From Neisseria arctica (GTDB lineage: Bacteria > Pseudomonadota > Gammaproteobacteria > Burkholderiales > Neisseriaceae), in NCBI RefSeq assembly GCF_022870905.1, contig NZ_CP091510.1:2314220-2378219 (forward strand): 64,000 nt of DNA. Reading direction: 5' to 3'. Shown here piece after piece: positions 12,180-57,748 of this stretch. How positions within the stretch are numbered: the first letter of the stretch is position 1; each line of letters starts with the position of its first letter. The notes beneath the pieces were generated by a model, which made no database searches, was not told where the DNA came from, and saw only the letters and a program-made list of their open reading frames with translations. The position numbers and the translations under genes were made by a program.

Positions 12180-12413
12180 GTTTCAACACACAGCCACCCG
12201 AAGGTGGCTGATTGCAGGCTTGGGCGACGTAGTTGCCCTGAAAGCGGTTTCAACACACAGCCACCCGAAGGTGGCTGATTAGCACTTGTGCTAATAACGA
12301 TAGTTTATCCCGATGTTTCAACACACAGCCACCCGAAGGTGGCTGACTAAGGCGGGCGATAATCACGAAGACGACACACATGTTTCAACACACAGCCACC
12401 CGAAGGTGGCTGA
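12180..12413 (-). CRISPR. type I-C CRISPR array 1 (4 repeats, 3 spacers)
   Basis: Four identical 32-nt repeats start at 12180, 12247, 12315 and 12382, with spacers of 35, 36 and 35 nt. On the minus strand the repeat reads TCAGCCACC-TTCG-GGTGGCTG followed by TGTGTTGAAAC. This is an 8-bp stem with a tetraloop and the GAAAC tail typical of type I-C repeats. The array lies directly downstream of the cas operon on the same strand, so the leader is the 12414-12603 interval beyond cas2. The spacer at 12279-12314 begins with the near-palindrome TTAGCACTTGTGCTAA. Confidence 0.97.
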
Positions 12414-12556: not shown

Positions 12557-12605
12557 AAATCGCTAACCTAACGGCTTTTTTATGAGAACTAATAGTTAGC
12601 GATTT
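12557..12605. repeat. 11-bp inverted repeat between cas2 and array 1
   Basis: AAATCGCTAAC (12557-12567) is perfectly inverted at 12595-12605 as GTTAGCGATTT, touching the cas2 stop codon. It lies inside the AT-rich leader that feeds array 1. It could be a terminator hairpin for the cas mRNA or a protein-binding site in the leader. No clear T-run follows the stem. Confidence 0.5.
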
Positions 12606-12897
12606 AAATAATCAAAGTATCTTGGAAAATATCCACTGCAGCCTTTGCACCATGATGTTCGACTTTTCGACGCCATTTACTGCCCAAATGATAAAACCGC
12701 AAACTGTCGGTATCGGGGTTATAAGTAGAGAGAAGCTTGGCTTTCAATTTCACCCATTGGTCGGGTGTAATATCGCATTCAAATACCGAATATTGCACCC
12801 GCACACCATAATCCAAACAATGTTTGGCAATTCGCCGCAAGCGGGCGGCGCCATCCGCGTCAGCGAGCGATACATCATAAGTAATCAGCATTAACAC
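12604..12897 (-). CDS. cas2: type I-C CRISPR-associated endonuclease Cas2
   Basis: Cas2 forms the Cas1-Cas2 integrase that inserts new spacers. The 97-aa protein has the ferredoxin-like fold start MLMLITYDVSLADADG with the conserved Asp8, then RLRRIAKHCLDYGVRVQYSVFEC, typical of type I-C Cas2. It is the last gene of the minus-strand cas operon, 33 nt after cas1, and is followed by the array leader. Confidence 0.96.
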   Translation of the reverse strand: MLMLITYDVSLADADGAARLRRIAKHCLDYGVRVQYSVFECDITPDQWVKLKAKLLSTYNPDTDSLRFYHLGSKWRRKVEHHGAKAAVDIFQDTLII

Positions 12898-12930: not shown

Positions 12931-13944
12931 TCACCGCATTAAAAACGGCGGATATTGAGCCAAATCACCGCGCAAATGCCGCGCTAGCAACATGGACTGA
13001 ATATGCGGTAGTAAGCCGATTGCCACTTCTTCCTGCAAAAACGGATGCACAATCTTTTCTTGCTTTTTCGCCTGCAAAGTTTGAAACAGCAGCTTGCGGG
13101 CTTCGGGTTTGATATTCACCGCACCACCGGCTTCGGTCACAAAATCCTGCGGCTTAATCTGTCCGCGGTTAATCAGGCTTAAAACCAATCTATCTGCCCA
13201 CCATGCGCGAAACTCCTCCAAAATATCCTGCGCCAAACTGTCTCGACCCGGGCGATCGGCGTGCAGAAAGCCCACTTGCGGATCCAACCCCACACCTTGC
13301 AGCGCGCCGCTGATATCCTTGCCCAAAATACTGTACACAAACGACAGTAGCGCATTCACCCCGTCACGCGGTGGGCGACGGTTGCGTCCATCGAAGGCAA
13401 AACCACTCTTCTCCTTAAGCAAATGCCCGAACACGCCGAAATAACGCGCCGCCGCATCGCCCTCTATCCCGCGGATTAGTTCCAAACTTTCCGCCCGTTT
13501 CAACTGCTGCAAACTAAAATTCAGCGCCGACACTGCTGCTTGCACCTCAGTCTGTTCACCATGATTGCGCAAGCGCCGCTGCAACACCCGTTTACTGGCT
13601 TGGATTTTCACCGCAATAATGTGCCGTGCAATCGGCACCGGATTGCACTCCGACAGCCGATATTGCGCCCTCCGCAGCAACACATTACCACTCTGCCGCC
13701 CCTGCAACCGCCCCAAAAAACGTCCGTTTTCGGTAAAAAACGCCATATTGACATTATTTTCACCGCAAAACCCCATCAAAAACGGGGACACCAGCACATT
13801 ACCGAAACAGAAAATATGCCCGATGGAATGCACCGGCAACTGCGCCACCTTTTTGCGCTCCTGCTCCACCACCAGCGTTTCCCGCTCCTTATGCAGATAA
13901 CTACCCTGCGTGGTGATATACAGCGTGTTTTGCAGCTTACGCAT
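12931..13944 (-). CDS. cas1: type I-C CRISPR-associated integrase Cas1
   Basis: Cas1 is the metal-dependent integrase that inserts protospacers at the leader end. From ATG 13944 the protein is 337 aa, starting MRKLQNTLYITTQGSYL. The frame is open 10 codons further, but AAGGAG ten bases upstream of 13944 decides the start. Active-site blocks are visible: the Glu in RGIEGDAAARYFGVFG, the His in VGFLHADRPGRDSLAQDILE, and following acidic residues. In ordinary type I-C operons cas1 directly follows cas4; here a restriction-modification pair intervenes. Confidence 0.96.
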   Translation of the reverse strand: MRKLQNTLYITTQGSYLHKERETLVVEQERKKVAQLPVHSIGHIFCFGNVLVSPFLMGFCGENNVNMAFFTENGRFLGRLQGRQSGNVLLRRAQYRLSECNPVPIARHIIAVKIQASKRVLQRRLRNHGEQTEVQAAVSALNFSLQQLKRAESLELIRGIEGDAAARYFGVFGHLLKEKSGFAFDGRNRRPPRDGVNALLSFVYSILGKDISGALQGVGLDPQVGFLHADRPGRDSLAQDILEEFRAWWADRLVLSLINRGQIKPQDFVTEAGGAVNIKPEARKLLFQTLQAKKQEKIVHPFLQEEVAIGLLPHIQSMLLARHLRGDLAQYPPFLMR

Positions 13945-14027
13945 GGTTGAAATTCTCCTTTGAACCAACCGCACTTTGGATGCTGCCTGAAAAATGTGAT
14001 TTGGCTTTCAAATAGTATTTATATATT

Positions 14028-15713
14028 CTAAATCCATTGTAAAATACTGGCTTGAAGATGCTTAAACCAAATATCCTCATCTTCTGCTTCTTGATTGTAT
14101 AACCATTGTTGATTCAACCAATTCTCTAAAATAGAAACTCTTGAAAAATTTTTCATAATTCCAACCTGAATAAATTTGATGAAATCATTTAAATTCATTG
14201 GAATAATTTTAGTTTTACCACCGTATCGCTTCGTGTTCATTCTATTTAAATTGAAAAAGAATGCTTTTGTAGAATCTGATATTTTGGGTGCAATAAAAAA
14301 ACAATATGCTTTATTATGCTGTAATTTTTTAACTAAATCACCATAATGTCTAGCAACGGATGAACCTTCCATATTAAACTGTGTCTCGCCACGAGACATC
14401 GTTACTTCAACAATGCATGAAAAATCTCCATAATTAATTTCAATATCCGGTTTGTTTCCCGGGGCCGTATTAAGCGGCATACCATCTAAGTCAAAAATAA
14501 AATTCCCATGAATTTCTTTAGTATGATTTAAAGCTGCAAAAGCACGCCAAACATTCCACTCTAGAAATAAAGGTGCATCCGGAACTTCTTTGGCAGTAAT
14601 TTTATCGAACATCTGATAAATATCGATTAAATCATCCGATTCATGTTTCTTTAATTTAATAATATTATCTTTTACAAGATGATTTTTTTGTTCAATTTGT
14701 AATAAAGATAACATTTCCTTTAATTCGTTTGTATCTTTGTCTTCCAAATTTGTCTGCTTAACCGATAAGTTTTTTATCTTATTGATCAATTGCTCTTTAT
14801 TATCTGAAAGCAAATACAATGAATCAGGATCAAATAAATAATTTTGGAATAATTCCACGCTATCAAAATGAATTGAATTTCTATCAACATTTTCCAAAAT
14901 AAATTTCACATCATTTATCTTAGATGGAGAAATTTTAATCCTCATTGTCTTAGAATCAATTGTGACCAATTCGGTAGCTCGAATATATCTAAAAAAAGCA
15001 TCTGCATAATCTCGCATATTACTTTCTTTTGTCTTTATGAACTTTTCAAAAGTAGAATCACTACTTTCTCGTGTATAGAATTGATTATTGATAATCTCAT
15101 GATGAAAAACTTCTTTTATTTCCATAGAAAATGTTTCCGAAACAAAAGATCGCCAACTTGTCTCTTTAGTTTTCCTACGCTCTCTGAAAGAAATAATTTT
15201 ATTTTTAACAATATCAAATTTATTAAAGCTTGTTAGTTGCAAGAAAAATAAGGCTATTTCCAACTTAGAGATAGAACCTAGTTCATCAATAAGACGCAAT
15301 AACTCTAAATAAGGTTTAACATTAAATTCAATAATATTAGATTGAGTATGATAAGGTGATGGCAATTGGAATTTTAATAACTGTTTAGTGAAAACTTCAT
15401 CCAACCTTTTTTTCGATATAAGCTGCTCACCAGCTTTAGTCAAATGAATACTTGGCTCTAACTGAATGAAACCTAATGCTTTAGGTGCACGAGTAATCCT
15501 ATCTCTAGCAGCTAAAGCAGGATCAGACGGTTTCTTCTCCCCTTCATAAAAATCAGATGAAAACAAAGCATCGAAGAATTCGATCTGCGTTTGAGTATTC
15601 CATTTTTTTCCGCTAAATTTTTTGCTTAATAAGATTAATTCTGGGATAATTTTTTCCAATGTCCTCGGTGAGGTAAAACCAAAAAGATGTTTACTTTTAG
15701 ATAGCGAAGCCAT
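14028..15713 (-). CDS. AlwI/N.BspD6I-family type IIS restriction (or nicking) endonuclease
   Basis: The 561-aa protein resembles the nicking endonuclease N.BspD6I and the AlwI family, which cut a few bases outside short asymmetric sites. Shared blocks recalled from that family are the N-terminal ARDRITRAPKALGF region (DNA recognition) and the C-terminal cleavage domain. The four catalytic acids of N.BspD6I have counterparts: Glu in FLEWNVWRAF, Asp in GNKPDIEI, Glu in IVEVTMSRGETQF, and Glu in NMEGSSVARHY. The start overlaps the upstream methyltransferase by 17 nt, so the two are coupled. The gene is strongly AT-rich with no uptake sequence, unlike the flanking cas genes. The site is unknown; GGATC or GAGTC are family precedents. 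Confidence 0.85.
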   Translation of the reverse strand: MASLSKSKHLFGFTSPRTLEKIIPELILLSKKFSGKKWNTQTQIEFFDALFSSDFYEGEKKPSDPALAARDRITRAPKALGFIQLEPSIHLTKAGEQLISKKRLDEVFTKQLLKFQLPSPYHTQSNIIEFNVKPYLELLRLIDELGSISKLEIALFFLQLTSFNKFDIVKNKIISFRERRKTKETSWRSFVSETFSMEIKEVFHHEIINNQFYTRESSDSTFEKFIKTKESNMRDYADAFFRYIRATELVTIDSKTMRIKISPSKINDVKFILENVDRNSIHFDSVELFQNYLFDPDSLYLLSDNKEQLINKIKNLSVKQTNLEDKDTNELKEMLSLLQIEQKNHLVKDNIIKLKKHESDDLIDIYQMFDKITAKEVPDAPLFLEWNVWRAFAALNHTKEIHGNFIFDLDGMPLNTAPGNKPDIEINYGDFSCIVEVTMSRGETQFNMEGSSVARHYGDLVKKLQHNKAYCFFIAPKISDSTKAFFFNLNRMNTKRYGGKTKIIPMNLNDFIKFIQVGIMKNFSRVSILENWLNQQWLYNQEAEDEDIWFKHLQASILQWI

Positions 15714-16563
15714 TCCAATTTCTCACTAAAATATGTTTAGATTCTGATTTAAATCGATTTCTTATATTTACAGCATAAGATTTTTCGTATTCGTGAATGA
15801 TATGCGAGGCATATAACTTCTCTGTTAATGATGTCTTACCAATAACCATTAATGCAGGAGTATGCAAATTTTTAAAATCTTCTGCCAATTTCCGATGCAT
15901 TTTTTCCGAAAATCCATCATTCATTTCTATATTTCCATAATCATTAAAAACACAGTCATATGGTGGATCTAAAAATATAAAATCATTAGAATTAGCCTTA
16001 TTGAAAATTTCATAATAATCTAAATTATAAATTTCTGTATTTTTTAATAGCTCGATATGATTGTCCGTGATTAATCGGGTATTAAAATTTTTATACCTTC
16101 CATAAGGCACATTGAATTTCCCTTGCGCATTGTAGCGTATCATTCCCGAATAAGATGTTTTATTAATAAAATAATAAATAGTTGCTGGATTATATTCCAA
16201 TAATAAATCTCCATTGAACATTTCTCTTATTCTATAATAGAGAGCTTCATTGTCATCATTTACTCTTAATTCAGGTGTTATTTTCTTTAAACTATCAAAC
16301 TTAGCTCTATTATTCTCATAAACATGCTGTAGTTCCTCTAATTCTTTTCGTACTTGCCGAGGATATAACTGAAGATTTTTATAAAAAGAAATTAGATTTT
16401 CATTAATATCATTAATGATAGAACCTTCTTTTTCCAGTTCAAAGAACATTGCTCCACCTCCCAAAAAAGGCTCAATATATCTACCTGTAAAATTAGGAAT
16501 AAATGGCAAAATTTCGGATAATTCTTTTGATTTTCCACCACGGTATTTTAAAATTGGCTTCAT
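15697..16563 (-). CDS. Dam-like (D12 class) adenine-N6 DNA methyltransferase
   Basis: This 288-aa protein transfers a methyl group from S-adenosylmethionine to adenine and should protect the host from the endonuclease encoded just downstream. The order of motifs is that of D12-class enzymes: N-terminal LKYRGGKSKELSEILPF, the AdoMet-binding YIEPFLGGGAMFFELE, and the catalytic FIFLDPPYDC (DPPY) near residue 198. Dam relatives usually recognise GATC-containing sites, which fits an AlwI-like GGATC partner. AT-rich and free of uptake sequences. It has its own -10-like TATAAT at 16603-16608 and lies between cas4 and cas1. Confidence 0.92.
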   Translation of the reverse strand: MKPILKYRGGKSKELSEILPFIPNFTGRYIEPFLGGGAMFFELEKEGSIINDINENLISFYKNLQLYPRQVRKELEELQHVYENNRAKFDSLKKITPELRVNDDNEALYYRIREMFNGDLLLEYNPATIYYFINKTSYSGMIRYNAQGKFNVPYGRYKNFNTRLITDNHIELLKNTEIYNLDYYEIFNKANSNDFIFLDPPYDCVFNDYGNIEMNDGFSEKMHRKLAEDFKNLHTPALMVIGKTSLTEKLYASHIIHEYEKSYAVNIRNRFKSESKHILVRNWNGFAI

Positions 16564-16602
16564 ATAAACTATAATCTGTTCGCAAAGGATAAACTGTAAT
16601 TA

Positions 16603-16608
16603 ATTATA
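16603..16608 (-). promoter_or_regulatory. candidate promoter -10 for the restriction-modification pair
   Basis: On the minus strand a perfect TATAAT lies 40 nt upstream of the methyltransferase ATG, preceded by an A/T-tract at -35 spacing instead of a good TTGACA. It suggests the inserted pair can be transcribed independently of the cas operon. No typical ribosome site precedes the methyltransferase start. Confidence 0.45.
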
Positions 16609-16649
16609 GCCTTTTTGATTTTGAAAAAAAACATCAAAGGAAAACTCCC

Positions 16650-17324
16650 TCACTCCCCAAACAATCCAGCCACATACTCCACTGACCTATCCCGCTCCAA
16701 CAACTTCGGCTGGCAAACATCCACCAACGAACAGGCTTTGCAGTGTTTGCCGTACACCGGCGGAGGGGTTTGCCCGCTTACCAAGAGTTCACGCACTTGG
16801 GCGATAACGGCCAGCGTTTGCGCTCTAAGGCCGTCTGAAAACACCACCGGCACACGATGGCGGGTTTGCATATACCACAGCGCGCCCTCGGCGACGGTTT
16901 GCCCAGTCATATCTTCCAAACACAGCGCTTGGGCGCAAAGCTGGATTTCGTCCATGGGTTCAGGTTTGGGCTTGCCGCGTTTGTATTCGACAGGTTTCAG
17001 GCAACCTGTATGTAGGTCGTGCTCGACCATATCGATAATGCCGCTAATACCTAAGTTTTCTGCTGCTACATGCACGCTGCGTTCAAAACGAACGCCTTTG
17101 CGGGTTTCCGGTTCACCACTATCTACCCGCTCATGCAAAGCCTGACCTTGGGCAGTGAGATAGTTTTCTGCCCACACCTGCTCGTTGTGAATTAACGCGC
17201 ATTGTCGCGGGCAGAAAGCGTAGTGTTGCAGGGCGGAGAGGGAAACGGTGGGGAACATCCATTCCCCTGCACCTGTAAGCGGTCGGTTTACTACAAAATT
17301 TTGCAAATCGGGCATTACAGCCAT
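16650..17324 (-). CDS. cas4: type I-C CRISPR-associated exonuclease Cas4
   Basis: Cas4 trims and selects prespacers by their PAM before integration. The 224-aa protein shows the RecB-family nuclease core GIIDMVEHD...KPVEYKRGK. An Fe-S cluster set of cysteines is present: the FCPRQC segment near residue 40 and the C-terminal [11 protein letters not shown]. Its start overlaps the cas7 end by 10 nt, implying coupled translation. An AG-type uptake sequence lies inside the gene near 16,828. The next cas gene, cas1, is displaced by about 2.7 kb of inserted restriction-modification genes. Confidence 0.95.
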
Positions 17325-18178
17325 TCTTCCACGCTCACGCCGCTCAGTCCGTCTGAATCGATGCGGATTTGATAGTCGGCAAAACCCGATGCCGGCGTGC
17401 CGCTTTCACCGTTGACGCGCTCAACTTTGACGGCATCAAACAGTTTGTGTGCGGGCAAGCTGCCCAGTGCGGTATCGTGTTTGAATACAATGAGTTTACG
17501 CGCCGCCATTTCGCCGCGGGCGGCGGAGCGGTCGTGCTCGAACATCAGTTGCAGGGCTTGCCAGAGTTTGGTTAAATCATCATCGGAAAAGCCGGTTTTG
17601 GCGGCAAGATTGGCAGAGATAAAGCCGTGAACACGGTAAAGAGCATAGGGAACAATGTATTTACGCCCCATGGTGCGCTCTTTTTCAAGGTCTTTTTCGT
17701 TGGTTACCGCCATACGGGTGATGGACACTTCCAGCGGAATAATTGGGTCAATTGATTGGGCAAACGCCAGTTGCACGGGGCCGCGTACTTGGCCGCTGTT
17801 GACTTCAGTGGTCATCACGGCGCCGAAGGTGCGGATATCGAAGAAATTTTTGCACATCCATGCGGTGATGTCGCGGGCTTTGGCTTCGTCTTTGGGTAAT
17901 TTTTTGGCTTCGGATTCGATACCCAAGGCTTCATAGGCGCGTTTGTTTTGCAGATTCAACACGCCTTTGTCTTTCACATAGATTTCATATCCCGGCTGGT
18001 TTTCATTAGCGAGTTCGACAAAATTGCGGATTTTGCGCTTCAGGCACACGTCGGTAACCAAGCCCTTGCTGGATTCGGGATCTAAGCGCGGCATATTGCC
18101 GGCGTCGGGGTCGCCGTTGGGGTTGCCGTTGGTTACATCAAAAAAGTAAACGAATTCATAGCGGTTTTGGATGAACAT
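17315..18178 (-). CDS. cas7: type I-C Cascade backbone protein Cas7 (Csd2)
   Basis: Cas7 polymerises along the crRNA to form the Cascade backbone. The 287-aa protein begins with the hallmark [15 protein letters not shown] segment of Csd2/Csh2 proteins. It continues with [18 protein letters not shown] and a [12 protein letters not shown] block. It lies 2 nt downstream of cas8c and overlaps cas4. The length is typical for type I-C. Confidence 0.95.
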
Positions 18179-18180
18179 GT

Positions 18181-19971
18181 TTATTCTCCTTCATGTGTTT
18201 GGGTAACTGCGGGGTCTTTTTTGGCGAAGTAGCTTTGCTTTTGCTGGTAATAGCCGATGGCAAAACGACCTTGTTCGTCGATACTCAAATGGCGCGGGAA
18301 AGTTTCAGGCAACATGGCGATAATCTCGCCCAAATCTTTGTCGAGATTGACCGCCATACCGGCTTTGTCTTTACGTAGGCGCGATAAGTGGTGTTTGGCG
18401 CCCGACAACAGACGCGGAAAAACGGAAAACGGCACGGCGGATGCGGAGCCGTAATAGCGGTCGGCAATGCCCGCATTCAATTCACCCAACGCCTGATACT
18501 GGATCCGCTCAAGCACGGCAAACAGCCGCCCGAGCAAATAAGCCTGATTTCGGCTTTCGGTGTTCAAACTCATGGGAACCTCCTCGTGAATAAAACCTTT
18601 TCTGAAACGCCGTTGCAACACGGCTTTAATCATGGCAACACGCAAACCGTTGGCATCACCGTCGGCGCGGATACGGGCAATCAACTGCGCCAGCAGACTC
18701 ATCGGATACAGCGTGCCGCCGATTACAGCACGCATCATCTCGCCTGCCAAAACGGGGGAAATATTTTCGCTTTTGCCCAACACGGCCGTCTGAAGCAGCA
18801 AACGCCACACCGACGGGGCGGTTTTCCATGGTTGCGGTTCCATCGCCAAATCCTGCCAATGCCGCGCTAGGTTCACTGCCAATTGCCCGAACGTGGTATC
18901 CAACCAAAAGCGGATGGAAATACGCGCCGCATTCGGCGCCAACCCCAAAATATAAAAGCGGGTATCGGGCGACAGATCGGGCGCGATTTCCTGCGAAGGG
19001 CGGCCTTTGGCGATTTGCTCTAAAATATCGAATACTTTTTGGCTTTGCTGCTCGTCATCGGGCGGGGTCATGATGTCGGCAAAGAAATCTTCGGCCGCGG
19101 CGGCGGTTTCGCTGTCGGCGGCTTCTGCCCAAAACACCGTGCTGGCATCGCCGATGGTGAGGCAATGGCCGTTTTCGCGGCGCAGCAGATAGTTCAGTGC
19201 GGTGGTATAGGCAAAGGCGGATACTTCCGACACTGGCGCATTCGCCCCCTGCTCTTTGCCAAACGAAGCAAAGGATTCTTTATTGAACGAAATAATCGAA
19301 CCGCCCGAACTCTGCCCGCCGAACACGCCCTTAATCGCCGGATGCAGCCGCGCAATCGGCGCTTCTTCGCCGCTGATCAGGCATAAACCCTGCTCGGCTT
19401 CGTCGCTTTTCAGACGGCCCGCCCATAGCGTTTGCGCCGCTTCACGCTTGTGAATCAAGGCGGAAGGTTTATCCAAAGCAAACACCACATTGGCATCCAA
19501 AGTTGCAGACAGACATGGATAATCGACAAATTGCGCGGGCTGCCAGTGTTGCAAAAAGCGGCGGACTGCCTGCAAACCTTCATCTTGTTCGTGTTGCAAC
19601 ACATCCAAATGATATTGCCGGAAGGCTTCAAAGGTTTTTTCAGACGGCACCACAGGTTCGGCTTTCGCCTGCACCTTGTCTTTATTGGCTTCCACACCCA
19701 AGGCATAAGCCGTTTTGTCCCATAGGAAAAATGGTTTAGGCGTTGTTCCGGGGCGCTTGAAAGATTGCGGTACGCTCATCAGTTTCGGCTGCTGTTTTTT
19801 ATCCGCCGTGAAATTCGGCACCGCATCTTGTAGACGGCCTTCTTTATCCAACACCAAAATCCAGCCGATTTTTTCCTCGCTAAAGCCGTAAGGCGGTACT
19901 TTTGGATTGCCAACATCATCGTTTTGCGTTGCCAAGCGGCGGTAATAACGCGCCAGTGAGGCCAAAATCAT
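18181..19971 (-). CDS. cas8c: type I-C Cascade large subunit Cas8c (Csd1)
   Basis: Cas8c recognises the PAM and, in type I-C, also yields an internally initiated small subunit (Cas11c) from its 3' part. The 596-aa protein starts [16 protein letters not shown] and contains family blocks KPPYGF-like [24 protein letters not shown]-type [19 protein letters not shown] and [15 protein letters not shown] toward the C-terminus. Its start overlaps the cas5c stop by 4 nt and its stop is 2 nt from cas7. Uptake sequences occur inside it near 18,784, 19,411 and 19,640. Confidence 0.94.
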
Positions 19972-20645
19972 GCTTTCACCTCCTCGGCGTAAAACGGCGG
20001 CACTTCGATTACCCCGTTTTTCATTTCCGCGCGGAAAAATTTCGGCAGATTGCCGTGGTCAAAATCAATATCGTGCAGCATCCAACCCAAATCGCGGTTG
20101 GCATCACTTTCAGACAGGCTGGTTTCGGGGAAAACACCGTCATTGTCCACCCAAGCAAAATGTGCCGGAAACTCACGCACGCCCATGCACGGCTGCTGAA
20201 AACACTGCCCTTTTGATGCCCGCCGCTTAAACATTTCAATATGCTTGGTGATCGTATCGTCCGCGCCTGCTTTGGCCGTGAGTACCGCATGGGCTTCAAT
20301 CACATAGCCCACATCTTTCAACACCGTTGCCGCACGCTGCTGGCGGTCGTCGTCAATCAACGTGTACAACCCCTCCACGCTCTTGCGCCGCATCGCCCCA
20401 CTGACCTTACTCTCCGAAATCTTGCCGCCCAACTCATTGCGACGCACCGATTCAAAACGGATCGGCTTTAACACATAAATGCGGTCAATCACCCAGCGGA
20501 TCGCCGGCTTCCAATGCACCGCCGCCAAAATCCCCCTCGCGGCAGAAGGTGTGATGACATCATAAGACACCCGTTCCACCTTCATTTCCGGACGGGTAAA
20601 GCAGGCGTAATCGCCCCAAATGTGTAGGCGGATTTTGTTTGGCAT
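19968..20645 (-). CDS. cas5c: type I-C Cas5c (Csd5), pre-crRNA endonuclease and Cascade subunit
   Basis: In type I-C systems, which lack Cas6, Cas5c cuts the pre-crRNA at the repeat hairpin and caps the 5' handle. The 225-aa protein starts MPNKIRLHIWGDYACFTRPE, and GDYACFTRPEMKVERVSYDV is a Cas5 signature. The frame extends upstream to 20783, but GGAG five bases before the ATG at 20645 marks the true start. Its target hairpin is present in both I-C arrays of this window. About 130 bp of AT-rich sequence with an uptake site separate it from the preceding DUF262 gene, so Cascade genes may have their own promoter. Confidence 0.95.
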   Translation of the reverse strand: MPNKIRLHIWGDYACFTRPEMKVERVSYDVITPSAARGILAAVHWKPAIRWVIDRIYVLKPIRFESVRRNELGGKISESKVSGAMRRKSVEGLYTLIDDDRQQRAATVLKDVGYVIEAHAVLTAKAGADDTITKHIEMFKRRASKGQCFQQPCMGVREFPAHFAWVDNDGVFPETSLSESDANRDLGWMLHDIDFDHGNLPKFFRAEMKNGVIEVPPFYAEEVKA

Positions 20646-20773
20646 AGATTCTCCGTTTTTTAATTTTTCTGCTGATTTTTGGTTTTCAGACGGCATACAA
20701 GCGGTCAGATTTTCCTGAAAATTTGTAAAATTGTCGGGGAATTGACTACACTTTTGTATATTACAAGATATTT

Positions 20774-22602
20774 TTAAGCCCAAATCATTTTGGCAATTTT
20801 AAATAACAGTACATGGCGTTCTTCCAATGCTTTTGCATCAAACTCATTAATTGCCTTTAATTCGTCTAATTTATATTCTTTCTTAAAATGCCCAACATCA
20901 AGATTGGATTTGTAAAAATCTTCTCTTAATGTCTCATTCCAAAGCAACGTACCAGAATAAGTTTTTAATTTTTGTTGATAGATTTCATTACTACTGGAAA
21001 TATTGTCTTTTCCTTTTAATAGCAAAACTCCACCTAATCTATTCCGTTCCACAAGGAACGTATCTTCATCTTCAAAATATCTTTGACTTTCTTCATTTCT
21101 GGATAGTATATGTTCGATATGAAAACCATTCTTCGCCCCTGTTTTTGTAACTAGATCTTCATAAGTATGTCTCATTTCGACACCAAATTGTTCTGCAAGA
21201 AAGCCTTCTACTCGAGCGAAGAAATAACGTTTAAAACGAGTATTTAAATTATCTCCTGTTGACTTAAACAAAGAGTAGTTCATTGGTTCATCCGATGTTG
21301 TTTTGTCTTTTAATACATCTTTTAATTCTTTATCAAATGCAGAACGGATAATTTCATCGTTATCCGCATTGCGAATACTGACTGCAATTCGATGCAATGC
21401 TTCTTGGAAGTTGTTACTTTCGTAAACACTCTGAAGCTGCATTAAAGAAAATAATCTGTCAGTTTCTAATGCAATCTTCTTAATTTTTTTATCTTCTTTC
21501 TCATCATTAATCTTGCAAACCGATAGACCTAACAAAAGTACACCGTCAATATCATTTAAACGGTTAAACGCAAATCCACCTACATCGTCTTTTTTGAGGT
21601 GAGTTGATAATTTCACATATAAATCAGAATAATAAGTAAAATCTTTCTCCAAAAAACACATAACACCTTGCGGATTATGGTCTAGTTTCAAATTCTGCTG
21701 GAACTCTGTTGAAAACATTAATCGATGATAATCACCATCATAACGTTTGGCATCGCTACGGCTTTGACTAAAACGAGCTTTTAAATAAAAGCGGAAGAAA
21801 CGATCAGTTTCATCATTAGATAATTGATTAATTGCACGCGTTTTATCCTCCCAAAGCTGATTATATTGGTTTTTATCCAATATAATTTTATCAATCTGAC
21901 CAAGCAGTTTACCTTTTAGAATTTCGTAAGGTTTTAAACGAACGCCACGATCATTAATAACCTCAAATACCATAGGGACATCTGTCTGCTCTACGGACAA
22001 ATTAATTAATACTAAACGACGTAAAAAGTAAAATATAAACGTTTCTAATTGGTTTTCTCCTTTTATATTCTGTTCTAACCAATATTTAATAACCTTATAA
22101 TTTTTCACCATATTTTCAGCAGTTAAGCCACTATTCACTGGAGCTTCATCAATCTGTTCTTGAAACAGTGCCTCTAATGTTGCTAAATGAGCCTCGTGCC
22201 TCATCCAAAAAGTTTTTTTATAACCTGATTGGCCAAATATTTTACTTTTTACCCAATCAGATAGATCACTTCTATTAGCAATAGCCTTATGGTATAAGTT
22301 CAATAAAATTAAAGTTAAAGTTGTTAATCGTTGCTGCCCATCTACAACATAAACCTTTCCGTCTATGGTATTAGTTACATAAGTATTTAAGTAATACCAT
22401 GGATATTTACTATCAATAACCTGTTCATCAGGAGGTAAGCTACTATTTTGCTGATATACCTCGTTAAATTTGTAAAAAATATCATCTAACAACCGTTTTA
22501 CAGGTTCTTGCATCCATTTATATTCACGTTGGTAAAAGTCAATGTAATATTGAGTATTACTAAAACTTTATCTATATTTTGTTTATCTGGAGAAATGTCC
22601 AT
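20774..22602 (-). pseudogene. GmrSD-like DUF262/HNH restriction protein, frameshifted near its 5' end
   Basis: GmrSD-type enzymes are type IV, modification-dependent restriction factors with an N-terminal DUF262 (ParB-like NTPase) domain and a C-terminal DUF1524 HNH nuclease. The long frame (to 22513, 579 aa) shows VVDGQQRLTTL and, near the end, the HNH block FHIEHILSRNEE with NRLGGVLLL. The conserved opening IDFYQREYKW lies just upstream in the same frame but has no start codon. An ATG at 22602 with a good AAAGGA site begins MDISPDKQNIDK in another frame and stops after 34 codons. One extra base near 22561-22570 would join the two. Either the gene is broken, or translation restarts at Met 22513 without the YQREY motif. 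AT-rich, no uptake sequence, inserted between cas3 and cas5c. Confidence 0.85.
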
Positions 22603-22683
22603 AATTTTTTCCTTTAAGTTTGGTTTAAGCTAAACGAATAATTCTAATATTTACTCTATTTATAAAGTTTTTGAATAACTAAT

Positions 22684-24963
22684 TCAATTCATAATACTAC
22701 CCATCCCCCCCACATCCTCCCAACTAAACCCCGCCACTTCATCATACAAATCCAACCCGATCAGGCTGTAGAACTGTTTACCAAAAGTATGTTCATTGAT
22801 GACTTCTACCCGCCCCGCTTTCAGCAAATCATCTAATGCACTTTCGGGGATTTGCACGGTATACGGCTGGAGCTTGCGTAACAAACCGCCGATTTGGTCG
22901 GCATAGCGCAGACTGTCGATCAGGCGTTCGGCCTCATCGTCGAACGGGATAATCAGCGGCTGCATATAGGTTTCGATCATGCGGAACTTTGCCGCGATGG
23001 TTTGGAAGGGGAAATCAAGACAGCTTCCTGCGTTGTGATGCATGGCGAGGATTCGGTGCCGGTCTAGCTCGGCGCTTTTGAGTTGGTAAACTTCGCTAAA
23101 GTAATCAGTGATAGCTTCCACCGACAGTAAATCATCGGCATGCTGCCGCACTACGGCACGCATCACGCCGGAGAGCAGTCCGAGTTCGGCGGGGGCTTTC
23201 CATTGTGCCTCGGGCTGGAATATCCAGACAAAGCTCTCTTCAGCCAGTCTTTTGCCTTCGCGGTTGCAGCGTCCGGCGGCTTGGGCGACAGAATCCAGCC
23301 CGGCTTCGGCGCGCATCACCAGTGGGAAATCAACGTCAACGCCCGCTTCGATCAAGGATGTGGCAACCACGCGGCAGGGCTCACCCTTTTTCAGACGGCC
23401 TCTAATGATTTCCAACATTTGGGTGCGGTGTTTCGCGCACATCAGGGTGGTCAGGTGGAACACGCCGTCAAGCGGTTTGGCGCTGTCATACAGGCTGCGG
23501 GCATGGCGGCGGTTATTGACAATGATGAGCATTTGCCGGTGTTGCCTGAGCTTTTCCAACAGGTCGGCATCGGTTTGTGTGCCGATATGTTGCACGGTGG
23601 TTCGGCGCAACTGTTCGAAGAGTGCGGGCGGATTCGGGGCAATTTCGCGCACGTTTTCAAATCCACGGTAAAAGCCGTGTTTGGCCTGCATGGCAGGCTG
23701 GGTAGCGGTGCACATCACTACGCTGCAACGGTAATTTCGCGCCAGCTCTTTGATGGCCTGCATTACGGGCAGCAACAGGTTGAGCGGCAACATTTGCGCT
23801 TCGTCAAGAATAATCACGCTGCCGGCGATATTGTGCAGCTTGCGACAGCGTGATGGCCGGTCGGCAAACAGTGATTCGAAAAACTGCACGGCTGTAGTTA
23901 CCACCACAGGCATATCCCAGTTTTCGGAGGCTTGGCGCAATTTGTCTTTGCTATGCTGGTCTTTGAGCTTGCCATCGTCGAAGGTACTGTGGTGTTCCAA
24001 TACGGCGGCTTCGCCCAAATCGCCGAAGGCTTTACGGAACTCGGCGGCATTTTGCTCGATGATGCTGGTAAAGGGGATGACGTAAATTACGCGCCGCATG
24101 CCGTGGCGCTTGGCGTGTTCTAACGCAAACGCCATCGAGGTGAAGGTTTTGCCACCGCCAGTAGGCACGGTAAGGGTAAACAGACCGGGCGCCTCGCCAG
24201 CTTGGGCGACGGCATGGTCAAGAATATCGCAGCGCATGCGGTTAAGCGCGGTGCGGCGTTGTTCGGCTTCGGCTGCCGGAACCTGATCGTCAGGCCGTCT
24301 GAAAGATTCAATAAAGGTGTTGAAACACTGCTGCAAGGTGTTTAAATCGGGATAGCCGCTGCGTTGTATAGCTTTGTTTTCAACGGAAGCATAAAAAGCT
24401 TCGGTATCGAGAAAATCGGCATCCACCAAGCAGGAATACAGCATGCGGGTGAAGAAGGCATAGGAAAACCATTTGTGATGGGCATCGGCCTTCAAGGGTG
24501 GGGCAGAAAGCTTTTGGGGCAGTATGATTTCCTGCTGCCAAACAGGATCAAGTTGATGCAATGCTTTCCCGTCAAACGGCAGTGCTAAGCGCTGTTTTAA
24601 AGTACGGCGGTTATCGCCTTCGCCATCACCATTAGCCAACCCGGCATGGTGCCCAGCAACGCAGAACGCCATCAGCTTGCCTGCTTGGTCACCAAACCGT
24701 TCTACCGCAATTTTGGCTCCCGCAGTAGCGTGATCCACCCTCTTTCCACCGTGTAAACGATCATTAAATTCAGGCGTATATTTTCCTACATCATGTAGCT
24801 GTCCTGTATATCGGGCAATCTCTTGCGCACCGAAAAAGGCAGCAAATGCAGCCGCCATGTCACCAACATTCATTGCATGACTTTGCAACGTTTGCCAAGT
24901 GGCATAATCACCGGGTAAGCCGGAATGGGCGTAGTAAGTGCGCGCAGGCAGATTTGTCATCAT
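22684..24963 (-). CDS. cas3: type I-C CRISPR nuclease-helicase Cas3
   Basis: Cas3 is recruited by Cascade to nick, unwind and degrade target DNA. The 759-aa protein has an N-terminal HD nuclease domain (H29 in LQSHAMNVGD, H57-D58 in GQLHDVGKYTPEF). A superfamily-2 helicase follows with Walker A TVPTGGGKTF, the DEAQ box VIILDEAQML, ATQPAM, and the late QAAGRCNREGK motif VI. AGGGGACG precedes the ATG. It is the first gene of the cas operon; in plain type I-C operons cas5c follows directly, but here a GmrSD-like gene intervenes. Uptake sequences lie inside near 23,388 and 24,294. Confidence 0.96.
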   Translation of the reverse strand: MMTNLPARTYYAHSGLPGDYATWQTLQSHAMNVGDMAAAFAAFFGAQEIARYTGQLHDVGKYTPEFNDRLHGGKRVDHATAGAKIAVERFGDQAGKLMAFCVAGHHAGLANGDGEGDNRRTLKQRLALPFDGKALHQLDPVWQQEIILPQKLSAPPLKADAHHKWFSYAFFTRMLYSCLVDADFLDTEAFYASVENKAIQRSGYPDLNTLQQCFNTFIESFRRPDDQVPAAEAEQRRTALNRMRCDILDHAVAQAGEAPGLFTLTVPTGGGKTFTSMAFALEHAKRHGMRRVIYVIPFTSIIEQNAAEFRKAFGDLGEAAVLEHHSTFDDGKLKDQHSKDKLRQASENWDMPVVVTTAVQFFESLFADRPSRCRKLHNIAGSVIILDEAQMLPLNLLLPVMQAIKELARNYRCSVVMCTATQPAMQAKHGFYRGFENVREIAPNPPALFEQLRRTTVQHIGTQTDADLLEKLRQHRQMLIIVNNRRHARSLYDSAKPLDGVFHLTTLMCAKHRTQMLEIIRGRLKKGEPCRVVATSLIEAGVDVDFPLVMRAEAGLDSVAQAAGRCNREGKRLAEESFVWIFQPEAQWKAPAELGLLSGVMRAVVRQHADDLLSVEAITDYFSEVYQLKSAELDRHRILAMHHNAGSCLDFPFQTIAAKFRMIETYMQPLIIPFDDEAERLIDSLRYADQIGGLLRKLQPYTVQIPESALDDLLKAGRVEVINEHTFGKQFYSLIGLDLYDEVAGFSWEDVGGMGSIMN

Positions 24964-33376: not shown

Positions 33377-33743
33377 GCAAGGTTGCGCCGCAATATGTGC
33401 GGTATCCGTTATGATTAAATGCCGTCTGAAAAATTTTTCAGACGGCATTTGAAATAAACGGCTCAAACAAACGAAAAAACGCAAACTCTGCACCGGTTTT
33501 ATAGTTAGTCGTTCTACAACCAACCTTTTGAATCCCTACAATACGGTAAACCCATATCGCCAACCCCAAGTACACATCCCAACCACAGCAGATCAGCGAT
33601 AAATAAAACTTCCGCATAATCAATATACTGCACACGATAGCGTGATAAAATCCGCATAAGGGCAGTCTGCCCGGCCTCCGAACACAGACATTAGCGAATT
33701 TACCCGCTCCAAACCTTTGGTTATATGCTTTGCGAAAGAGGCT
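33377..33743. other. intergenic region and putative leader of CRISPR array 2
   Basis: About 370 bp between pilU and the first repeat of array 2. The first 70 nt hold the pilU terminator. The remainder should contain the leader of the array. The last 18 nt before the first repeat resemble the last 18 nt before array 1 (12 identical by eye), both ending AGGCT. A 65-codon minus-strand frame at 33438-33635 has no recognisable family and was not accepted as a gene. Confidence 0.5.
33419..33448 (+). terminator. inverted AT-type DUS terminator after pilU
   Basis: ATGCCGTCTGAA and its inverted copy form a perfect stem 42 nt downstream of the pilU stop. Confidence 0.75.
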
Positions 33744-34064
33744 TCAGCTACCTTCAGGTAGCTGTGTGTTGAAACCGATTAACACTTCAGTAATGCAAGG
33801 TGATCTGTATCAGCTACCTTCAGGTAGCTGTGTGTTGAAACCTCGGACCTCCGCGTGAAGATACAAGAGTAATGCTCAGCTACCTTCAGGTAGCTGTGTG
33901 TTGAAACGGTTACGCCCGGCTGATTCAGACAGCTGCTGATGTCAGCTACCTTCAGGTAGCTGTGTGTTGAAACATCACAGTATTTGGCTACTTGATATAA
34001 CGCCCATTTCAGCTACCTTCAGGTAGCTGTGTGTTGAAACTGCATATGGTTTGTAAAAAAGTTT

Positions 34065-34777
34065 GGGGCTGTATTAGATTGGCAGTTATGTTACCCTTTA
34101 AAAATGAAGATAACATACTGTAAACTATCTAAAAAAGTACAAAAAAAGTTGCTTGAATTTTTTGTACTTGAGGTAACCGCCCGTTCTGCTGCCAATTTAT
34201 TGGATATTAACCCCAATTCAGCAGCTCTGTTTTACCGTAAAATTCGCCAAGTCATTGCCTATCATTTAGAGCTTCAAGCTGATGAAATCTTTGATGGTTC
34301 AATCGAGCTTGATGAGAGTTATTTTGGTGGACAACGAAAAGGCAAACGCGGTCGCGGAGCGGCTGGGAAAGTAGCGGTATTTGGTATTTTGAAACGTCAA
34401 GGCAAGGTTTATACTGTTGTCGTTAAAAATACCAAACAAGATACTTTACTACCTGTTATTAAACGAAAAATAATGCCTGATAGCATTGTTTATACGGACT
34501 ATTACAAAAGCTATGATGTGCTAGATGTGAGTGAATTTACGCATCACAGAATCAATCATTCAGAGCTTTTTGTCGACCGTCAAAACCATATCAACGGTAT
34601 TGAAAACTTCTGGAATCAGGCAAAGCGCGTTCTACGAAAGTACAATGGAATTGACCGAAAATCTTTCCCTTTATTCTTGAAAGAATGCGAATTTCGTTTT
34701 AACTTTGGTACACCAAAAGAGCAACTTAAAATCTTGCGAATTTGGTGTGATATTTAAGGCTAATCTAATACAGCCCC
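34065..34777 (+). mobile_element. IS1016-like insertion sequence (IS1595 family) inside a CRISPR spacer
   Basis: The 713-bp element is bounded by perfect 16-bp terminal inverted repeats GGGGCTGTATTAGATT (34065-34080) and AATCTAATACAGCCCC (34762-34777). Both flanks read AAAAGTTT (34057-34064 and 34778-34785), an 8-bp target duplication as expected for this family. Removing the element and one duplicate leaves a 34-nt spacer, equal to its neighbours. The perfect ends and intact transposase indicate a recent insertion. Confidence 0.95.
34104..34757 (+). CDS. IS1016-like transposase
   Basis: The 217-aa DDE-type transposase fills the element between its inverted repeats. The catalytic blocks of the IS1595/IS1016 group are present: the first Asp in IELDESYFGGQRKGKRGRG, the second in IVYTDYYKSYDV, and the distal HINGIENFWNQAKRVLRKYN segment. 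An N-terminal helix-turn-helix-like region (TARSAANLLDINPNSAALF) should bind the ends. The frame is uninterrupted, so the element could be mobile. Confidence 0.95.
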   Translation: MKITYCKLSKKVQKKLLEFFVLEVTARSAANLLDINPNSAALFYRKIRQVIAYHLELQADEIFDGSIELDESYFGGQRKGKRGRGAAGKVAVFGILKRQGKVYTVVVKNTKQDTLLPVIKRKIMPDSIVYTDYYKSYDVLDVSEFTHHRINHSELFVDRQNHINGIENFWNQAKRVLRKYNGIDRKSFPLFLKECEFRFNFGTPKEQLKILRIWCDI

Positions 34778-35567
34778 AAAAGTTTTGTTGCAACGTCAGC
34801 TACCTTCAGGTAGCTGTGTGTTGAAACAAATATGGTGCAGCCGTTGTCGTAACTACCGCCCTTCAGCTACCTTCAGGTAGCTGTGTGTTGAAACATAACC
34901 GCTAAATAATCGCAATCGGGAAAAGTCGGCTCAGCTACCTTCAGGTAGCTGTGTGTTGAAACTTGCGAGTGAACAGTTACCACGAGATACAGGCGGCTCA
35001 GCTACCTTCAGGTAGCTGTGTGTTGAAACAAATAATAATTGCCTGTTGATTCGCAACAGGCATTCAGCTACCTTCAGGTAGCTGTGTGTTGAAACGGTTA
35101 AGCTTGAGCGGGGTGGTGTGGCAACGGACTCAGCTACCTTCAGGTAGCTGTGTGTTGAAACCTAAAGGGGCAGATGGAGCAGCCGGTGCTGCTGGATCAG
35201 CTACCTTCAGGTAGCTGTGTGTTGAAACAACATAGCCAAAATCTGCTCAGCGGTCTTTTCAGTCAGCTACCTTCAGGTAGCTGTGTGTTGAAACGGCAAA
35301 CAGACGGAAGACGTAGGCAACAGGTGCTTCAGCTACCTTCAGGTAGCTGTGTGTTGAAACCAAAGCCGGTTAAAGATATGGGAGAGTAACATGGAATCAG
35401 CTACCTTCAGGTAGCTGTGTGTTGAAACTTTTTTGCCGTTAATCAGGCTGCCGAAAAACTCGTATCAGCTACCTTCAGGTAGCTGTGTGTTGAAACCAAT
35501 TTTCAATGTAGGGGTGTTACCCGGGTCGCCTTTCAGCTACCTTCAGGTAGCTGTGTGTTGAAATTTT

Positions 35568-35596
35568 GGCCGTCTGAAAATATTTTTCAGACGGCC
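35568..35596. terminator. inverted DUS pair between CRISPR array 2 and the MFS gene
   Basis: A GGCCGTCTGAA inverted pair starts 4 nt after the last repeat. It can end the array transcript on the plus strand and the MFS gene on the minus strand. Confidence 0.75.
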
Positions 35597-51850: not shown

Positions 51851-52941
51851 CATCCAACTCCCTTTCTCATTTCGCAGTGCTACAATCCATCAAGTTTTAA
51901 ATCATCTACATTGGCAGTTGTAGCTCCCTTTCTCATTTCGCAGTGCTACAATTGTGAATGCTCTAATACCTCTAGTGAAGCCGTTGTAGCTCCCTTTCTC
52001 ATTTCGCAGTGCTACAATAGCGTAGTATTTAAACCGACATCAAAAGGTGTTGTAGCTCCCTTTCTCATTTCGCAGTGCTACAATCATGCAACGGCCATTA
52101 CCAGAACAAGAGACGTTGTAGCTCCCTTTCTCATTTCGCAGTGCTACAATCCGCGTCGCCGTGACGTTTTTTGCCGTCCTGTTGTAGCTCCCTTTCTCAT
52201 TTCGCAGTGCTACAATTTGAATTTCCTAACTGGCCTTTCGAGACGGTTGTAGCTCCCTTTCTCATTTCGCAGTGCTACAATTTACTGGGAGTGGTTGGTT
52301 AACTGGGTTGGGTTGTAGCTCCCTTTCTCATTTCGCAGTGCTACAATTCAAGTATCTTACGAACGCCCAAGTTCGTTGTTGTAGCTCCCTTTCTCATTTC
52401 GCAGTGCTACAATAGGTATTTAATGACATGCTCAACCGAGCGTGTTGTAGCTCCCTTTCTCATTTCGCAGTGCTACAATGCCGTTATCGTGATCTAGCAA
52501 TGCTTGATCGTTGTAGCTCCCTTTCTCATTTCGCAGTGCTACAATTTACGCTCGATTACATATGAATAATTTCCAGTTGTAGCTCCCTTTCTCATTTCGC
52601 AGTGCTACAATGCGACCGTGAAGCGGATCTGGCACAGGATAGTTGTAGCTCCCTTTCTCATTTCGCAGTGCTACAATTATAATTTCTGTTTAAATGATGA
52701 CAATTTCGTTGTAGCTCCCTTTCTCATTTCGCAGTGCTACAATCCAAGACCTTTTGCCAATGCATCCATAACCGTTGTAGCTCCCTTTCTCATTTCGCAG
52801 TGCTACAATTATTATTGATGGCGGGAATGATCACTACATGTTGTAGCTCCCTTTCTCATTTCGCAGTGCTACAATAACTATGACGTATTGCCTATTAATC
52901 GCAACGTTGTAGCTCCCTTTCTCATTTCGCAGTGCTACAAT
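51851..52941 (+). CRISPR. type II-C CRISPR array (17 repeats, 16 spacers)
   Basis: Seventeen 36-nt repeats (first at 51851, last at 52906-52941) have 30-nt spacers, one of 29 nt. The repeat begins GTTGTAGCTCCCTTTCTCAT and ends TTCGCAGTGCTACAAT, the same as N. meningitidis type II-C as I recall it. The 3' end TGCTACAAT acts as an extended -10, so each repeat starts transcription of the next spacer. The first repeat is degenerate in its first seven bases only. The reading direction is toward cas2, opposite to the cas genes, and an intrinsic terminator follows at 52948. Confidence 0.98.
51878..51886 (+). promoter_or_regulatory. repeat-borne extended -10 element, first array promoter
   Basis: TGCTACAAT closes the degenerate first repeat and recurs unchanged at the end of all 17 repeats. 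In the N. meningitidis II-C system this element drives an individual promoter for each crRNA. The same is inferred here. Confidence 0.6.
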
Positions 52942-57633: not shown

Positions 57634-57748
57634 ATTGTTGCACTGCGAAATGAGAAACGTTGCTACAATAAGGCTTCTTATACTCGTATAAGATATGCCG
57701 CAACGCTCTGCCCCTTAAAGTTTAGGCTTTAAGGGGCATCGTTTTTTA
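57634..57748 (+). ncRNA. type II-C tracrRNA
   Basis: The anti-repeat ATTGTTGCACTGCGAAATGA and the following GCTACAA pair with the CRISPR repeat except for a four-base internal bulge. After it come GGC...GCC with an inserted hairpin TCTTATAC/GTATAAGA, then CCGCAACGCTCTG, and a final GC-rich hairpin CCCCTTAAAG/CTTTAAGGGG ending in T6 as terminator. The layout matches Nme tracrRNA, except that the middle stem is longer and carries no uptake sequence. Divergent from cas9. Confidence 0.92.

Follow-up and report, generated by a model that had tools for sequence, protein, structure and literature searches.

CreTA, CrePA and CreR, as described in the available parts of three articles, combine degenerate repeats with an RNA resembling CRISPR RNA (crRNA) which brings Cascade to a promoter by partial complementarity, CreT being RNA toxins and CreP a KilA-N protein (PMC12737573, PMC9458426, PMC13131331). 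The name CreR is used there for types I-B, I-E and V-A (PMC13131331). A variable locus of Streptococcus suis, in the available part of its report, holds defence systems that differ from strain to strain (PMC5398294). The present analysis concerns a type I-C cas operon of Neisseria arctica in a stretch of 64,000 nucleotides (nt) at the end of a single 2.378-Mb contig (the window), in which genes unrelated to CRISPR-Cas fill the cas3-cas5 junction (slot A) and the cas4-cas1 junction (slot C). From comparison with related loci, it is probable that the operon has two fixed, swappable slots and that in 13 relatives the cargo of slot A lies between a predicted target and a crRNA-like gene and would be repressed by Cascade, an arrangement which the window itself does not have.

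Like CreTA, CrePA and CreR, 32 relatives of the window operon have degenerate repeats, a short pseudo-spacer and a partly complementary site in the cas locus that is flanked by a protospacer adjacent motif (PAM). Unlike those systems, the unit lies in type I-C and at the cas3-cas5 junction, and the window is without it. A further difference from CreTA and CrePA is that the place which would be guarded holds small proteins, presumably DUF2188-like or mostly hydrophobic, and in 13 loci whole defence systems. The presence of different defence systems at one place is shared with defence islands and with the S. suis locus as far as its report is available, but here the place is inside a cas operon and restricted to two junctions (PMC5398294). 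Gene order and gene families of the window are those of type I-C CRISPR-Cas, from which it differs by its two filled slots, 46 more distant relatives being uninterrupted. Judged by titles and the openings of abstracts, with partial coverage, no report was found of defence systems inside I-C cas operons or of CreR/CreA in type I-C. If true, the proposed regulation would be a concrete and testable switch which ties CRISPR-Cas to many defence systems beyond mere neighbourhood, it would explain why defence genes enter these cas operons at certain junctions only, and it would make the unannotated slot cargo a ready candidate list of unknown defence genes. The guide and target pairs give exact sequences for testing the release of backup immunity upon inhibition of Cascade.

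Two filled junctions in related operons

Relatives were collected by a Cas7 search over 46 genomes of the genus, with matches in 27, and by a scan of species genomes in which the best 80 of 288 relatives were kept. Full loci were collected, seven duplicates and loci below 7 kb were left out, and each junction was measured by tblastn. The near set comprises 37 loci with native I-C effectors (17 from Neisseria, 15 from Pasteurellaceae, two from Cardiobacterium and three others) and the distant set 46 relatives with a Cas7 identity of 69-81%; a further 11 Neisseria loci, whose effector is divergent, form a separate set.

Open reading frames (ORFs) of at least 150 amino acids (aa) are present at the cas3-cas5 junction in 21 of 32 scorable near loci and at the cas4-cas1 junction in 28 of 36. 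The same is true of only 2/36 loci at cas7-cas4 and 2/33 at cas1-cas2, and of none at cas5-cas8 or cas8-cas7 (0/36 each). The cas4-cas1 junction is filled in all 17 near Neisseria loci as opposed to 7 of 14 Pasteurellaceae loci, and in the distant set both slots are empty (0/44 at cas3-cas5, 0/45 at cas4-cas1). Three Neisseria loci have a cas3-cas5 distance of 10.2 to 11.6 kb, their junction values having been entered by hand and later confirmed. Cargo ORFs of this length in native I-C loci point in the direction of the cas genes in 31/31 cases in slot A and 34/37 in slot C, an orientation which permits co-expression with the cas genes. That the two junctions are fixed cargo slots of the operon is well supported by these counts.

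In the window the two gaps measure 2041 nt and 2711 nt. The sequence-only reading had seen an I-C operon of normal make-up except for two unrelated restriction-type units at its module borders and had suggested a search of relatives for the same order and for uninterrupted operons. The arrangement is confirmed and recurs in near loci, and the distant loci supply the uninterrupted form; the observation was real, with an extent greater than stated and one gene less intact than stated. That two insertions were nested by chance in a single strain, which that reading had named as the outcome that would count against it, has practically no likelihood left: the low guanine-cytosine (GC) content of both inserts and the broken frame of the DUF262 gene in slot A speak for it, but the same junctions are filled in most related loci, and this recurrence in dozens of genomes refutes it.

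In the divergent-effector loci (L126, L127 and L129-L137), Cas7 is only 34-53% identical to that of the window, whereas cas4 is 78-87% and cas1, where found, 78-91% like the window genes, so that the adaptation genes are similar despite different effectors. Some relatives appear to have frame breaks in cas genes because their tblastn matches fall in more than one frame (cas3 in L033, L038 and L057; cas4 in L112; cas1 and cas2 in L114; cas1 in L120 and L123).

Contents and probable exchange of the cargo

Cargo-like ORFs of at least 95 aa form 63 clusters. Pfam was scanned with 55 slot ORFs and one cas1-cas2 ORF (56 in total), and PADLOC with 48 slot ORFs and the two restriction-modification (RM) proteins of the window (50 in total); 27 of these 50 match a defence model below 1e-20 and 20 match nothing at 1e-3. 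Slot A holds SIR2-HerA (L032, L050, L113), Dsr2 (L045, L051), Thoeris (L038), Gabija (L115), PD-T4-4 (L054), a PDC-M48B protein (L112), OLD-like ATPases (L048, L120), DUF262 (window, L116) and type III restriction (L039, and by 77% identity to it L117, L119 and L122). Slot C holds AlwI-type RM (window), BsuBI/PstI-type RM (L111), AbiP2 (L114, L116, L131, L051), Shedu (L115), a cyclase plus 2TM effector (L122), SLATT (L033), DUF262 (L037), DarT-DarG (L134), an OLD ATPase (L121) and PIN (L112, L045), with further contents beyond these families, many without a name; L131 and L134 belong to the divergent-effector loci. The window is an instance of a wider two-slot pattern, in which most cargo genes belong to other defence families or are unnamed. 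A cluster at the cas3-cas5 junction of L129, L130 and L135, together with two shorter ORFs, was rejected as cargo as it is a second cas3 according to Pfam.

This variety bears on the idea that the locus is a composite one, whose restriction fragments are fed into the acquisition of CRISPR spacers; no evidence for such feeding was found, although no test aimed at it was made. The RM pair of the window does adjoin the adaptation genes cas4 and cas1, but the same slot of relatives holds genes without restriction-like DNA cleavage (the AbiP2 reverse transcriptase, DarT-DarG, the cyclase with its 2TM effector) and the array of the window has only three spacers, making a composite locus of this kind very unlikely.

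Slot C ORFs with no or weak Pfam and PADLOC matches are found in L034, L041 and L135, in L047 and L127, and in L117 and L118, and such ORFs of slot A in L033, L037 and L034, with one NA37 match in L033. These weakly matched ORFs, 263-590 aa long and in several cases recurring in distant species, are candidate unknown defence genes. In slot A of L117, L119 and L122 (with L139-L141) the cargo is nested, as the ORFs inside a type III restriction cassette of 10-11.6 kb vary; ahead of the presumed Mod gene there is, for example, a low-GC ORF of 769 aa or of 539 aa, and the ORFs separating Mod from Res are not the same. Outside the two slots, the cas1-cas2 junction of L043 and L051 encodes a DUF1706 protein (172-174 aa), which Pfam recognises in L043 at 1.3e-49 and of which L051 has a copy with about 70% identity.

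On its left, slot C is bounded at or near the cas4 stop codon, and on its right by a short leader upstream of cas1 that is conserved in part. Two loci, L117 and L118, are 100% identical across cas7, cas4 and the slot C cargo, with cas5 at 93.6% and cas1 at 93.2%; by these values the identical stretch is a recombinant tract. The slot C cargo of L112 (Neisseria) and L045 (Bibersteinia) is 88.6% identical at the nucleotide level, as opposed to 76.4% for cas4 and 74.7% for cas1. Between the window and L116 the DUF262 gene is 86.0% identical, with cas3 at 75.0% and cas5 at 81.8% but cas1 at 87.9%. As one tract is recombinant and one cargo is more alike than its flanks, cargo probably moves between loci by homologous recombination within the cas genes on either side.

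Entry by way of a mobile element or a site-specific recombinase, with the two junctions serving as attachment sites, would also account for the repeated filling of the same places and for the sharp left border at the cas4 stop codon. It is an unlikely explanation, since the right borders differ between loci, the recombinant tract extends over cas7 and cas4 into the cargo, and no transposase or integrase family scored above the Pfam cut-off among the 56 ORFs scanned; target-site duplications were not looked for.

A predicted guide and target unit in relatives

The cas3-cas5 junction was tested in 34 candidate loci, and 32 I-C loci carry a CreR/CreA-like unit there. A repeat-end motif is found upstream of cas5 in 25 native I-C relatives (23 calls were made by regular expression and three were set or corrected by eye); a scan with the consensus repeat misses most of these degenerate repeats. 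In the predicted guide, two I-C-repeat-like hairpins, the first followed by TTGAAAC, enclose a pseudo-spacer that is about 25-35 nt long, and this layout of two repeats and a short pseudo-spacer is present in 22 aligned units. The first hairpin can be formed in 22/22 aligned sequences with differing stems, a figure without a chance control. In the second hairpin 97.6% of cells are paired, compared to 51-70% when the positions are slid, and both sides have changed in six of eight pairs; its covariation exceeds that of shuffles and slides.

In 31 loci the target of the pseudo-spacer is located 43-70 nt past the end of cas3 as given by tblastn, and in L043 272 nt past it, so that a partly complementary, PAM-flanked target exists within the locus in 32 of the 34 candidates. 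Three loci (L040, L041, L124) were left out of the target test because their sequence does not include the cas3 end, and L051 and L076 were dropped from the 34 candidate pairs before a mismatch profile was made from 31 distinct pairs, in which the sites used to judge a position were selected without that position and irrespective of the PAM. The mismatch rate lies within 0.03-0.26 for positions 1-5 and 7-11 and within 0.13-0.19 for positions 13-14, with peaks of 0.84 at position 6 and 0.77 at position 12. The R-loop of Cascade leaves every sixth base unpaired, and the PAM of type I-C is TTC. The trinucleotide beside the 31 targets is TTC in 22 cases, TTT in four, TTA in two and another in three.

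Pseudo-spacers match their own targets at 12.71 of 16 positions, as opposed to 9.64 (standard deviation 0.17) for shuffled pseudo-spacers. A seed of at least 6/7 beside TTC is found in 12/22 own pairs compared to 42/462 swapped pairs, and in shuffles at a mean of 0.3 and a maximum of 3/22. A blind search matched 33 of 52 loci, whereas shuffled target windows matched in 0.85 loci on average and never in more than 2; four duplicates are included in the count, and three matches (L035, its duplicate L116, and L048) are not repeat-like and were taken as chance. Among the distant candidates, 11 of 12 were picked through their blind-search match, a search which matched 11 of the 15 distant loci whose gap was 200 nt or longer. 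Selection of sites by all 16 positions gives the same sites in 31/31 pairs with a TTN PAM and in 30/31 without.

Target and guide enclose large cargo in 13 loci (L032, L033, L037, L039, L049, L050, L054, L112, L113, L115, L117, L119 and L122), with the target on the cas3 side and 1.8 to 11.6 kb of co-directional genes before cas5. The other 19 guide-bearing loci have no large cargo there. Four of them (L043, L114, L118, L123) have a protein of 75-76 aa with a ribosome-binding site, which we take to be DUF2188-like, and L111 has a shortened homologous frame. Nine distant loci have proteins of 49-62 aa, eight of them with a hydrophobic segment (Kyte-Doolittle mean over 19 residues of at least 1.6), L121 has a frame of 59 aa just under this threshold, and L042, L047, L101 and L105 have nothing convincing between target and guide.

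These sequence features strongly suggest that slot A of the relatives is under the control of Cascade, which may repress swappable backup defences there. In such a mechanism, homologous recombination in the neighbouring cas genes would exchange the varied anti-phage genes of the two slots, Cascade carrying the crRNA-like RNA would shut a promoter at the start of slot A, and phage-targeting crRNAs (by competition) or anti-CRISPRs (by inhibition) would release the cargo. It is quite possible, although put forward tentatively, that the cas3-cas5 junction is a CRISPR-guarded rack, with Cascade held on a slot promoter that originally served a small toxin-like protein and now serves whole anti-phage systems, and that cas4-cas1 is a second, unguarded rack. 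The systems swapped in by Neisseria and Pasteurellaceae would include Gabija, SIR2-HerA, PD-T4-4 and type III RM, and a phage disabling or diverting Cascade would switch on the stored backup system.

The unit may repress the genes of the slot, the cas5 operon or both. The position of the target bears on the comparison with a plain CreR, in which the unit would autorepress the cas5-cas8-cas7 operon and slot A cargo with promoters of its own would merely be tolerated. Such autoregulation agrees with the CreR described for types I-B, I-E and V-A in the available part of a review (PMC13131331), with the presence of the unit in the 19 loci without large cargo and with L051, in which the target adjoins cas5. 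A repressor of cas5 alone, however, would have no need of a target kept on the cas3 side at up to 11.6 kb from cas5, as in the 13 cargo-filled loci, which speaks for control of the slot; a small ORF between target and guide is also retained in most loci that lack large cargo. Plain autoregulation is for these reasons possible rather than probable, with L051 and the loci without large cargo speaking for it.

Several observations weigh against Cascade-repressed, exchangeable cargo. The guide is missing from seven cargo-filled loci (the window, L034, L038, L045, L048, L116 and L120), and in L051 the target lies outside the cargo. The own pairs outside the 12/22 have a different PAM, a weaker seed or none; the loci behind the 31 pairs are in part related to each other, and the set was initially selected by a score omitting positions 6 and 12. 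The sigma-70-like score at the target is 9.2 compared to 8.9 for shuffles, that is, there is no promoter signal above shuffles. With respect to exchange, the other pairs that share cargo have cargo mostly about as divergent as its flanks, or more, and may therefore be old. Linkage among cas genes is no lower across the slots (cas3-cas5 0.75, cas5-cas8 0.63, cas8-cas7 0.51, cas7-cas4 0.65, cas4-cas1 0.49, cas1-cas2 0.35), and the idea of a module swap, which predicts a drop in linkage at the cargo junctions, was rejected. In the window, finally, the region between cas5 and a point 900 nt upstream of cas3 contains no repeat-end motif, and the best target score of 10/13 is reached in 7 of 89 control windows.

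A relic target in the window was rejected as it falls within these controls. For a guide elsewhere in the window, GTTGAAACTAAAG is not above chance, and a search of the whole genome for the repeat with up to three mismatches gave only two arrays and no guide elsewhere. As neither guide nor target exceeds the controls, the RM genes of the window are not predicted to be under Cascade control, and the window cargo would be expressed without it.

The window operon, its cargo and its arrays

The features of the operon are as follows, from cas3 onwards.

22684..24963, minus strand: cas3, 759 aa (ORF; Pfam DEAD, Cas3-like_C_2 and HD domains)
22498..22602, minus strand: out-of-frame start of the DUF262/GmrSD-like gene, a frame break (read from the sequence and from a 609-aa relative)
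20774..22513, minus strand: long frame of the DUF262/GmrSD-like gene, 579 aa, slot A cargo (GmrSD_N 1.6e-17, GmrSD_C 2.4e-8)
19968..20645, minus strand: cas5c (Cas_Cas5d 7.7e-48; ATG at 20645)
18181..19971, minus strand: cas8c, Csd1 (Cas_Csd1 9.9e-192)
17315..18178, minus strand: cas7, Csd2 (Cas_Cas7 5.4e-108)
16650..17324, minus strand: cas4 (Cas_Cas4 8.9e-28)
15697..16563, minus strand: Dam-like D12 adenine methyltransferase, slot C cargo (MethyltransfD12 1.3e-41; PADLOC MTase_II 2.1e-72; DpnM 1.8e-27 among PDB sequences)
14028..15713, minus strand: AlwI/N.BspD6I-type endonuclease, slot C cargo (RE_AlwI 4.7e-60; PADLOC REase_II 8.1e-55; N.BspD6I 2.6e-53 among PDB sequences)
13968..13976, minus strand: AAGTGCGGT in the leader before cas1 (read from the sequence)
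12931..13944, minus strand: cas1 (Cas_Cas1 1.9e-100; ATG at 13944)
12604..12897, minus strand: cas2 (CRISPR_Cas2 1.7e-25)
12180..12413, minus strand: CRISPR array of four repeats and three spacers, after cas2 (repeat search)

The order cas3, cas5c, cas8c, cas7, cas4, cas1, cas2 on the minus strand and the Csd1-type Cas8 assign the operon to type I-C, with no cas6 among the ORFs listed within it. All seven frames are open, so that the earlier statement of seven open cas genes in I-C order agrees with ORFs and Pfam. The C-terminal end of Cas3 is atypical, its last residues being unlike those of nine compared relatives. The GC content is about 29-35% in the cargo and about 48-56% in the cas genes.

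As to the identities which the sequence-only reading had given to the cargo, the Dam-like methyltransferase, the AlwI/N.BspD6I-type endonuclease and the GmrSD domains stand, and the intactness of the DUF262 gene does not. The ATG at about 22602 leads into another frame than the one bearing the domains, which is open from 22513, and about 30 N-terminal residues are missing from the long frame in comparison to the intact, 92% identical copy of 609 aa in Neisseria viridiae (L116). The window gene probably makes no normal protein. Like GmrSD/DUF262 endonucleases, the chain has GmrSD_N and GmrSD_C together and both domains are recognised; unlike them, it lacks an intact DUF262 N-terminal and HNH C-terminal domain in one frame, and its nearest PADLOC models are HEC-06 and Orf5. 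The nearest PDB sequences are a DUF262 protein and SspE. Modification-dependent restriction, which had been suggested for this gene, is not established because PADLOC places the intact relative in L116 closer to DUF262 proteins of the HEC-06/Orf5/SspE type than to models of type IV restriction.

In slot C, the endonuclease and methyltransferase genes overlap by 17 nt. An AlwI-family endonuclease adjoining an adenine methyltransferase is the arrangement of AlwI/N.BspD6I type IIS RM, to which both families match, and the pair is likely to work as an ordinary type II RM system.

The motif AAGTGCGGT, which is presumably the core of the Pasteurellaceae uptake signal, is present within 130 nt upstream of cas1 in 6/26 Neisseria and 7/13 Pasteurellaceae loci compared. 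Its occurrence there in both families may be a trace of inter-family exchange. The window genome has 20 copies of it compared to 19 of the reversed pattern and no extended form, so that an uptake role is a lead only.

A second I-C-like array at 33743-35583 of the window has 17 repeats of a slightly different repeat (CTACCTTCAGGTAGC stem) and is split by a transposase-like ORF at 34104-34757; around it there are no cas genes among the listed ORFs of at least 150 aa. A third array of 16 repeats at 51917-52941 belongs to the Rfam family CRISPR-DR34, with a lone match to this repeat at 57634-57669 on the other strand, 4.7 kb away. We take the CRISPR-DR34 array to be probably part of a type II-C system.

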